Source: Devosia insulae DS-56 (lineage in GTDB: Bacteria; Pseudomonadota; Alphaproteobacteria; Rhizobiales; Devosiaceae). From it: DNA of 64,000 nt. The notes below the pieces were generated by a model. That model saw only the letters and a list, made by a program, of their open reading frames with translations. It did no database searches and had not been told where the DNA came from. Shown piece after piece: positions 57,087 through 59,453 of the stretch. Location: contig NZ_LAJE02000158.1 of NCBI RefSeq assembly GCF_000970465.2, positions 1-64,000 of the forward strand. Reading direction: 5' to 3'. Both the position numbers and the translations under genes were made by a program. Each line of letters opens with the position of its first letter. Positions within the stretch are counted from its first letter, which is position 1.

Positions 57087-57128
57087 GGTGGTCCTCGTTG
57101 GCTGAACCGGCCACACATGGCGGCTGAG

Positions 57129-57236
57129 CCCCGGCGGCGCAAGAACGCACACCGAGGTAACCTGCATCCTCCGACCTGCCTGCCCCGGCGGCGCATGACC
57201 GCACCCCGAGGTAACCTGCATCCGCCAAACTGCCTA
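57129..57236. repeat. Two tandem 54-bp direct repeats
   Basis: Copies at 57129-57182 and 57183-57236 share CCCCGGCGGCGCA and CGAGGTAACCTGCATCC with a few substitutions. Part of the 305-bp gene-free gap between dsbA-like and membrane protein genes. Confidence 0.85.
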
Positions 57237-57256
57237 TCGAACTCCCTACCCGCGGT

Positions 57257-57339
57257 GTCATCCCCGCGAAAGCGGGGATCTGCGTTTGCGATGGTGGCGC
57301 GGCCAAGAAAACCGAGGTTCCCGCTTTCGCGGGAATGAC
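57257..57339. repeat. Palindromic element, copy 3 (83 bp)
   Basis: Outer ends GTCATCCCCGCGAAAGCGGG and, on the other strand, GTCATTCCCGCGAAAGCGGG. The interior differs from copies 1 and 2, lacking the CTGAGGCTG centre. Confidence 0.8.
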
Positions 57340-57391
57340 CCGGTGGTTACGTCCAGGGCCAGACTTCGGTGCGGTCCAATCGCGAGATGCC

Positions 57392-57796
57392 TTAGTTGAA
57401 TGCCATAACGGCGCTGATGACGATGCCGGCCATGGCGAGCCGGGTGATCCAGCCCATTACCTGTGGGCTGATGGTGCCCGGCTTGGCGACGATGCCGATG
57501 ATCATGGCGATCAGCACGACGACCACCAGCCCCATCTTGATGAAGAACCAGATGCTCTGCCCTTCGAACCCGCCATAGCGGACATAGACCATGGCGATGC
57601 CGGTGATCAGCAGCAGGCCGAAGGCGATGCGGGCGTTGATGGAAAGGCGTTTGCCGATGCCGCCGAGCAGCGGTCGTGCATCGGGCGGCGCCGCGGCGAT
57701 ACGGCTGCCGATCAGCGGCGCCGCGATGGTGGTGGTAATGGCCAGCCCGAAGGCCGCGAGATGAATGATGAGAAGGATATTGAACGTGAGATCCAT
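57392..57796 (-). CDS. Four-TM membrane protein behind a SoxR-type promoter
   Basis: 134 aa: hydrophobic helices near residues 5-30 (ILLIIHLAAFGLAITTTIAA), 52-70 (INARIAFGLLLITGIAMVYV), 80-102 (WFFIKMGLVVVVLIAMIIGI) and 112-132. It resembles short DUF2269/CopD-like membrane proteins, with His in TM1 (IIHLAAFG) as a possible heme or metal contact. The promoter architecture implies induction by redox stress. Confidence 0.72.
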   Translation of the reverse strand: MDLTFNILLIIHLAAFGLAITTTIAAPLIGSRIAAAPPDARPLLGGIGKRLSINARIAFGLLLITGIAMVYVRYGGFEGQSIWFFIKMGLVVVVLIAMIIGIVAKPGTISPQVMGWITRLAMAGIVISAVMAFN

Positions 57797-57827
57797 GACG
57801 GCCGTGCCCTTTGCTGGAAAGGCAGAC

Positions 57828-57858
57828 TGGATACGACCTCAAGTGAAGTTGAGGTCAA
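57828..57858 (-). promoter_or_regulatory. SoxR/MerR-type promoter
   Basis: Leftward -35 TTGACC (57858-57853), a 19-bp spacer, and -10 TATCCA (57833-57828). The spacer holds most of a perfect inverted repeat GACCTCAA / TTGAGGTC separated by 6 nt (57835-57856), close to the classic SoxR box with arms CCTCAAGT and ACTTGAGG. Confidence 0.75.
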
Positions 57859-58046: not shown

Positions 58047-59453
58047 CTAGTGCCCGAGCGCCTTGACGATGTCTTCGGTGACCTTCTTGGCGTCACCGAA
58101 CAGCATCATGGTGTTGTCGCGGAAGAACAGCTCGTTCTGGACGCCGGCATAGCCGGCCGCCATGCCGCGTTTGATGAACAGCACCGTGCCGGCGTCTTCG
58201 ACGTTCAGCACCGGCATGCCGTAAATCGGCGAGGTCTTGTCGGTCTTGGCCGCGGGGTTGGTGACGTCGTTGGCGCCGATGACGAAGGCGACATCGGTCT
58301 GGGCGAACTCGGAGTTGATGTCCTCGAGCTCGAACACCTCGTCATAGGGCACGTTCGCTTCGGCGAGCAGCACGTTCATGTGGCCCGGCATACGGCCGGC
58401 CACCGGGTGGATAGCGTACTTCACTTCGACACCCTCGGCCTTCAGCAGGTCGGCCATTTCGCGCAGCGCATGCTGGGCCTGGGCCACGGCCATGCCGTAA
58501 CCGGGGACGATAATGACCTTGCCGGCGTTCTTCATCATGAAGGCCGCGTCCTCGGACGAGCCCTGCTTGACCGGCCGCGTCTCTTCTTCGCCCGCGCCGG
58601 CGGCGGCGCTGTCGCCGCCGAAACCGCCGAGGATCACCGAGATGAAGCTGCGGTTCATCGCCTTGCACATGATGTAGCTGAGGATGGCGCCGGACGAACC
58701 CACCAGCGCCCCGGTGATGATCAGCGCGGTATTGCCCAGCGTGAAGCCGATGCCAGCCGCCGCCCAGCCCGAATAGGAGTTGAGCATCGAGACCACCACC
58801 GGCATGTCGGCGCCGCCGATCGGGATGATCATCAGCCCGCCCAGCACCAGCGCGACGACGGTGATGGCCCAGAACCACAACGGATCGACGGTGACCGCGA
58901 AGGCCCAGATCAGCACCAGCAGCAACAGCCCGAGGGCGATGTGTATGATATGGCGGAATGGCAGGATGATCGGCTTGCCGCTCATATTGCCGTTGAGCTT
59001 GGCGAAGGCGATGACCGAACCGGTGAAGGTGAAAGCGCCGATGGCGACGCCGAGACTCATCTCGATCAGCGCCTGGGCGTGGATATGGCCGACCGTGCCG
59101 ATGCCGAAGGCCTCGGGCGCATAGAGCGCCGCAGCCGCCGCGAACACCGCGGCGAGGCCGACCAGTGAGTGGAACGCGGCGACCAGTTGCGGCATGTCGG
59201 TCATCTTGACCTTGCGCGCCAGCACCGCGCCGATGCCGCCACCAATGGCGAGGCCGCCGATGATCAGCACCCAGCTCAGCCAGTCGGAAACGCCGGCCAC
59301 CAGCAGCGTGGTGACGATGGCGATGCCCATGCCGACCATGCCGAAAGTGTTGCCCTGCCGCGACGAGGCCGGGCTCGAGAGCCCGCGCAGCGCCAGGATG
59401 AACAGCACGCCCGAGACGAGGTAGAGAACGGCGGCGAAACTGGCGTCGATCAT
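58047..59453 (-). CDS. pntB: NAD(P) transhydrogenase subunit beta PntB
   Basis: 468 aa: N-terminal membrane domain (about residues 1-260, nine TM helices) and C-terminal NADP-binding domain (VIIVPGYGMAVAQAQHALRE ... GRMPGHMNVLLAEANVPYD ... VIGANDVTNPAAKTD). Couples proton entry to hydride transfer from NADH to NADP+. Starts in a 4-bp ATGA overlap with the preceding exported-protein gene. Confidence 0.97.
   Translation of the reverse strand: MIDASFAAVLYLVSGVLFILALRGLSSPASSRQGNTFGMVGMGIAIVTTLLVAGVSDWLSWVLIIGGLAIGGGIGAVLARKVKMTDMPQLVAAFHSLVGLAAVFAAAAALYAPEAFGIGTVGHIHAQALIEMSLGVAIGAFTFTGSVIAFAKLNGNMSGKPIILPFRHIIHIALGLLLLVLIWAFAVTVDPLWFWAITVVALVLGGLMIIPIGGADMPVVVSMLNSYSGWAAAGIGFTLGNTALIITGALVGSSGAILSYIMCKAMNRSFISVILGGFGGDSAAAGAGEEETRPVKQGSSEDAAFMMKNAGKVIIVPGYGMAVAQAQHALREMADLLKAEGVEVKYAIHPVAGRMPGHMNVLLAEANVPYDEVFELEDINSEFAQTDVAFVIGANDVTNPAAKTDKTSPIYGMPVLNVEDAGTVLFIKRGMAAGYAGVQNELFFRDNTMMLFGDAKKVTEDIVKALGH

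Follow-up and report, generated by a model that had tools for sequence, protein, structure and literature searches.

The question raised by this locus is whether a promoter of the SoxR type controls the gene of an uncharacterised membrane protein, and what such a protein may do for the cell. The window, a 64,000-nucleotide stretch of the Devosia insulae DS-56 genome, carries the gene, its promoter and a possible transcript end on the minus strand (Table 1). Sequence comparison supports the promoter architecture, its conservation, the linkage to soxR and a remote resemblance to a known protein superfamily, and the best explanation overall, which is considered probable, is a SoxR-activated and probably single-gene transcription unit for a membrane effector against redox-active compounds.

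Table 1. Features of the promoter, the gene and its possible transcript end in the window.
Feature	Position	Strand	Basis
SoxR box ACCTCAACTTCACTTGAGGT	57836..57855	-	Read from sequence; upstream in 17 orthologs, the window's own counted
-35-like hexamer TTGACC	57853..57858	-	Read from sequence; identical in 17/17 promoters
-10-like hexamer TATCCA, 19 bp from the -35-like hexamer	57828..57833	-	TA at equal distance in 17/17
Gene for a predicted four-helix membrane protein, likely remote HemJ/CopD-superfamily relative, 134 codons, stop included	57392..57796	-	ORF, orthologs, AlphaFold2 model, Pfam CopD below cut-off
Terminator-like hairpin, possible transcript end	57318..57335	-	Consensus match only; within a larger imperfect inverted repeat, 57247-57349

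A near-consensus SoxR box within a 19-bp spacer had been proposed in the sequence-only reading of this DNA, and the description was borne out. The spacer between TTGACC and TATCCA (57852–57834, minus strand) measures 19 bp and encloses the palindrome ACCTCAACTTCACTTGAGGT, which agrees at 16 of 18 positions with CCTCAAGTTAACTTGAGG, the SoxR consensus of E. coli given in PMC4411124, and lies 39 bp from the start codon of the 134-codon gene. When the SoxR-box pattern was scanned with at most three mismatches, this was the single site in the window, and 100 shuffles gave no match. With the 14 fixed bases alone, the window contained one site with no mismatch, and the next best site had four. No support was found for reading the palindrome as a chance match; in view of the empty shuffles, the absence of matches to a reversed control pattern genome-wide and the retention of the site in 17 orthologs, this reading has a negligible probability.

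The search of the 5.75-Mb assembly for soxR, proposed together with the promoter, recovered a clear homologue. Among 10 MerR-type domains, a single one exceeds the NCBIfam SoxR cut-off (201.5 bits against 116.9), and the C-terminus of this protein contains CIGCGCLSTSSC, the CX2CXCX5C cluster motif of SoxR. Its gene is encoded elsewhere in the genome, not adjoining the window gene, and has an MFS transporter gene as divergent neighbour with a box in between. Only four boxes with at most three mismatches are present in the whole genome, against none for the reversed control pattern, and all four are oriented towards a gene: the window gene, the MFS gene, a SnoaL-like gene that passes NCBIfam TIGR02246 (SgcJ/EcaC family), and an ABC exporter gene (ABC_tran 116.4 bits, ABC_membrane 62.1 bits). 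The boxes at G000:C90:12435-12454 and G000:C386:14832-14851 precede the SgcJ/EcaC-type SnoaL-like gene and the ABC exporter gene. With 10 MerR-type domains in the cell, the site might be used by another MerR-family regulator instead of SoxR. However, just one of these domains reaches the SoxR cut-off, and the same box type adjoins the genome's own soxR and the soxR of 12 orthologous loci, which renders such a regulator highly improbable.

Relatives of the window protein were sought in 19 genomes of the genus, 136 of the family, 297 of the order and 385 of the class, the order and class sets being even draws, so that the order may hold more members. Four other genomes of the genus encode orthologs at 90–98% identity, Devosia sp. 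Root413D1 (locus L051) has a copy at 98%, and a box was found before 17 orthologs including the window's own (L021–L027, L068, L070, L087–L094), among which the identity to the window protein falls to about 34%. Sixteen of these belong to the family, and one (L068) comes from another family of the order. Their boxes have 0–1 mismatch in the 14 fixed positions and lie 36–132 bp upstream of the matched start, and on the gene strand all 17 promoters follow the pattern TTGACC, 19 bp, TA. A palindrome of 18–20 bp between the -35 and -10 elements, an over-long spacer of 19 bp, a SoxR in the same cell and conservation of the site in relatives, the features by which a SoxR promoter is recognised, are thus all found here.

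Beyond these orthologs, relatives of the protein occur without the box. Across the family, 68 places were found at E<=1e-15, of which 16 have the box and 52 have none in upstream scans. When 77 loci of relatives were scanned over their full length, the best site in any of them had four mismatches. The class-wide search (385 genomes) gave two weak relatives outside the order at E<=1e-8, with 4–5 mismatches in the best sites of their loci, and the plasmid collection gave no match to the L068 relative at E<=0.001. A tree was inferred from 55 distinct rows: 62 of 66 loci yielded a row (four gave none), and seven identical rows were dropped. Some loci contain the same gene twice under two identifiers, L093 (G708) was retained despite an in-frame stop, and another two soxR-linked proteins were deliberately excluded. 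A branch with a support of 97/98 separates all 17 box rows from the others, and the 52 family-wide places without a box correspond to the opposite branch; the tree is unrooted, and "one clade" here denotes one side of that branch. The box state changes once on the tree, compared with a mean of 14.7 changes after shuffling, and none of 500 shuffles was as low. At G000:C219:18005-18838 (L047, L080, L140), two box-less relatives of the window protein are encoded in tandem, with UPF0093 scores closer to the cut-off, and tandem pairs also occur elsewhere in the genus.

In 12 of the 17 box loci (L026, L027, L068, L070, L087–L094), soxR is the immediate divergent neighbour, with the box in between. 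The five close copies including the window's (90–100% identity) have no adjacent soxR, so the box is the one tie of this clade (5/17) to SoxR. Viewed from the regulator, 40 matches above the SoxR cut-off were found in the family, and neighbours were viewed for 31 soxR loci (30 family loci and the window genome's own). The divergent partner is a window-type protein in 11 of these and an MFS protein in another 11, while an FMN reductase (G773) occupies the position once and a glyoxalase-family protein twice (G756 and G757, Pfam having been run on G757). Gene-first and soxR-first searches agreed on 11 of the 16 family box genes. The two genes also co-occur: among the 136 family genomes, 16 carry the box gene and 15 of these have SoxR, whereas only 24 of the remaining 120 have it (Fisher p = 9.5e-9, inflated by shared ancestry), and the single box-gene genome without a SoxR match, G010, is an 82% complete draft. 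Genomes with box-less relatives only are not clearly enriched in SoxR, at 11/40 against 13/80 (p = 0.16, likewise subject to inflation by shared ancestry). The proposal of a SoxR-type promoter therefore has strong comparative backing, with the box in 17 orthologs and soxR as divergent partner in 12 of them, and these comparisons make control of the window gene by SoxR highly probable. Because the SoxR box is present in 17 genomes and the promoter region is common with soxR in 12, these small membrane proteins, taken as a clade, very likely serve as dedicated effectors in the response to redox-active chemicals.

Other arrangements were observed at further soxR loci of the family. In G773 (L110), the FMN_red gene is divergent to soxR and the box has no mismatch. 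A different small membrane protein is divergent to soxR in G294 (L121) and G788 (L122), where the box has 1–2 mismatches; this protein has an HYxHIVSG stretch at its start and weak DUF2269/CopD matches, and is perhaps an independent recruitment of a similar kind of protein. In G711 (L117), a box with one mismatch lies 4 bp from the soxR start, and the divergent frame opens with a PAN domain. In G766 (L114), G765 (L118) and G735 (L123), the best site before soxR has three mismatches and there is no evident divergent partner. The palindrome in these three genomes contains AGCTCAA-N6-TTnAGCT in place of ACCTCAA-N6-TTGAGGT, and their SoxR might have a shifted site preference.

The pairing with soxR could also be read as feedback, in which the protein would be induced by SoxR, return membrane electrons to SoxR and so replace Rsx/RseC. 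There is a precedent in E. coli, where Rsx/RseC reduces SoxR, as stated in the accessible part of PMC11729352. The divergent position of the window-type gene in 12 of 17 loci agrees with such a role, as does the lack of an Rnf/Rsx-type subunit (PF02508) in the window genome and in 15 of 16 family box-gene genomes; the profile gave no match in the window genome and a positive E. coli control. It should be noted that PF02508 cannot separate Rnf from Nqr. However, most genomes of the family (110/136) have no Rnf-Nqr, and this absence shows no enrichment among those with the box gene. The subunit was found in 26 of 136 family genomes, including 1 of 16 box-gene genomes against 25 of 120 others (p = 0.31; p = 0.63 among SoxR-positive genomes), and 34 of 39 SoxR-positive family genomes are without it. 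A replacement of Rsx by the window-type protein was accordingly rejected as uncorrelated. Moreover, no cysteine is conserved among the 17 box orthologs and the window protein has none, which leaves no apparent route for electrons through Fe-S clusters or thiols. At 11 of the 31 soxR loci viewed, an MFS protein takes the divergent place instead, so this place is not set aside for a reducer. A SoxR-reducing device is therefore regarded as improbable.

A related and more speculative proposal, to which we give an equally low chance, is a new kind of partner for SoxR: a membrane protein which, with a tetrapyrrole or quinone as ligand, would sense or drain electrons at the membrane and set the redox state of SoxR in bacteria that have no Rsx. 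If true, soxR and its divergent partner would form a two-gene redox circuit, and the protein of G294 and G788 would be an independent recruitment. Rnf-Nqr is, however, present in those two genomes, and across the family its absence is not correlated with the window-type gene; both points speak against this proposal. For studies of SoxR resetting where Rsx is missing, the window-type protein is a candidate.

The window gene had been described as the only gene behind the promoter. The terminator-like hairpin of Table 1 lies between it and the next gene, which encodes a DSBA-domain protein about 300 bp downstream, and therefore the window gene is probably alone in its transcription unit. The description is thus likely to be correct, yet falls short of proof; two terminator-like sites were detected over a scanned length of 1.3 kb, for which shuffled sequence gave 0.7 on average. 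A DSBA-domain gene follows in 16 of 17 box loci, but it was not counted into the unit, and co-transcription with it was set aside, because the distance between the two genes ranges from about 0.1 kb to 1 kb across these loci. The imperfect inverted repeat at 57247–57349 has 41-nt arms, 78% complementary, on either side of GCGAAAGCGGG; as a guess, it resembles a dispersed REP-type element. Also between the two genes, a 54-nt repeat is present at 57128–57235 in two tandem copies that are 89% alike. Directly upstream of the window gene lies pntB, encoding a transhydrogenase beta subunit (58047–59453), which is near the locus in several orthologs too, with soxR in between in some.

The membrane protein itself had been described as having four transmembrane segments with a histidine in the first, and structure prediction agrees on both counts. 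The AlphaFold2 model, computed from an alignment of 15 sequences (mean pLDDT 88.9, pTM 0.78), consists of four long helices at residues 2–33, 41–74, 82–103 and 111–132, with lengths of 22–34 residues. His12 is located in the first helix and is the sole histidine of the protein, as it is in all 17 box orthologs, in which F5, L9, P27, L62, G66, M69, W83, F84 and K87 are also invariant.

Profile searches point to a distant family. The window protein scores 19.5 bits against Pfam CopD (PF05425; cut-off 32.1) and 11.6 bits, again below the cut-off, against DUF2214, and it has no match to UPF0093 (PF03653) at E<=1. Weak matches to CopD were obtained for 8 of 9 orthologs and to UPF0093 for 3 of 9; the box-less relatives match UPF0093 in 17 of 18 cases and CopD in 15 of 18, with a best E of 7.4e-10. 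Given these weak matches among orthologs and box-less relatives alike, distant kinship with the HemJ/CopD superfamily is likely for the whole group, though below threshold for the window protein. Profile alignment by hhalign gave a probability of 4.6 (E 0.0088) against the genome's own HemJ and 1.0 against the other soxR-linked protein, compared with 0.4 for an unrelated transhydrogenase-type subunit used as control. A sequence profile search of the PDB yielded no match at E<=1, and of 505 Foldseek matches at E<=10 none reached E<=0.001. The best Z in the fold search was 13.9, and the matches were generic helical bundles throughout, including heme-binding designs and cytochrome b6, and were given no weight as evidence. 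One weak PADLOC match to KwaA (E 0.016) was dismissed.

HemJ, in the 2018 work of Skotnicova, is said to be a protoporphyrinogen oxidase with bound heme b. An inducible HemJ-like oxidase that backs up heme synthesis under redox stress may be considered, and the UPF0093 resemblance, seen in 17 of 18 relatives without the box and in 3 of the 9 orthologs, lies in this direction. The window protein is also like HemJ (UPF0093) and CopD in size, in the helix count of its model, in the first-helix histidine and in a W..K pattern in the third helix, as judged from the genome's own HemJ frame. Yet its profile matches stay below the curated cut-offs and it keeps one histidine, whereas the genome's HemJ frame has more (the helix positions being our reading). 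The cell already has a true, separate HemJ at 199 bits, so the window protein was rejected as the cell's HemJ, and a back-up oxidase appears very improbable.

Drawing on the known biology of SoxR, a mechanism may be outlined by analogy for the preferred reading of a SoxR-activated membrane effector. In Stenotrophomonas, redox-active compounds oxidise SoxR, which activates the 19-bp-spacer promoter of mfsA, according to the accessible part of PMC4411124. Similarly, such compounds would oxidise SoxR of the window genome at its [2Fe-2S] cluster, and the oxidised regulator would remodel the over-long 19-bp spacer and allow RNA polymerase to transcribe the window gene, while reduced SoxR would keep it off. 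The product, a small four-helix protein of the inner membrane, would act against redox-active small molecules or their damage, lowering the concentration of these compounds or the harm done, and may bind a tetrapyrrole or quinone near the invariant His12 and the W83-F84-x-x-K87 motif. That it is a membrane redox or ligand-binding effector is a tentative suggestion, in which the ligand and the biochemical role are put forward on weak grounds. The earlier proposal of a new redox-stress effector is thus reasonable in its regulatory part, given the conserved box and the soxR link.

MexG has a role in the SoxR-controlled mexGHI-opmD operon of Pseudomonas, and by analogy the window protein could be a small accessory protein that helps to export or bind drugs. 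Of the genome's other boxes, two precede exporter genes, one of the MFS and one of the ABC type. Transporters also belong to the SoxR regulons described for P. aeruginosa and S. coelicolor in the accessible text of PMC4146615. Nevertheless, no exporter gene adjoins the gene in the loci with listed neighbours, except for a frame read as LysE-like upstream in L051, and neither the window protein nor its orthologs have a DoxX match in Pfam. An accessory role in export is thus judged unlikely.

Among the literature matches listed, nothing in the titles and the beginnings of the abstracts ties a MerR-type SoxR to this protein family or to Devosia. The papers naming both SoxR and Devosia, as far as their accessible parts go, concern an ArsR-type sulfur regulator that is also called SoxR, and resistance genes on plastic waste. 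If the gene is a dedicated effector, it would offer a one-gene handle on how soil Alphaproteobacteria cope with phenazines, quinones and similar compounds.

In comparison with known systems, the partner of soxR in E. coli is an AraC-type regulator, whereas the partner here is a membrane protein. Like the orthologous loci, E. coli soxR-soxS is a divergent pair with a shared box, and the box of L068 contains the E. coli consensus, as given in the accessible part of PMC4411124, letter for letter. The soxR-mfsA pair of Stenotrophomonas maltophilia has a box of the same type (ACCTCAACTGCAGTTGAGGT), a 19-bp spacer and a divergent layout, as in 12 of the 17 orthologs; binding of SoxR to the box before mfsA, which is divergent from soxR, is reported there from gel shift and box mutation (PMC4411124, accessible part). 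In contrast to that pair, the window gene has no soxR beside it, and in place of an MFS pump it encodes a predicted four-helix membrane protein. The SoxR targets named for P. aeruginosa and S. coelicolor (PMC4146615) and for Stenotrophomonas (PMC4411124) in the accessible parts of these sources are of two kinds, exporters and enzymes that modify small molecules. For P. aeruginosa and S. coelicolor, that part of PMC4146615 names no four-helix protein of the HemJ/CopD type; each regulon there comprises a handful of targets, with transporters among these, and the four-box regulon of the window genome resembles them in size and, the window gene apart, in rough flavour. In addition, the FMN-reductase gene divergent from soxR in G773 recalls the flavoprotein reductase target of Streptomyces coelicolor.
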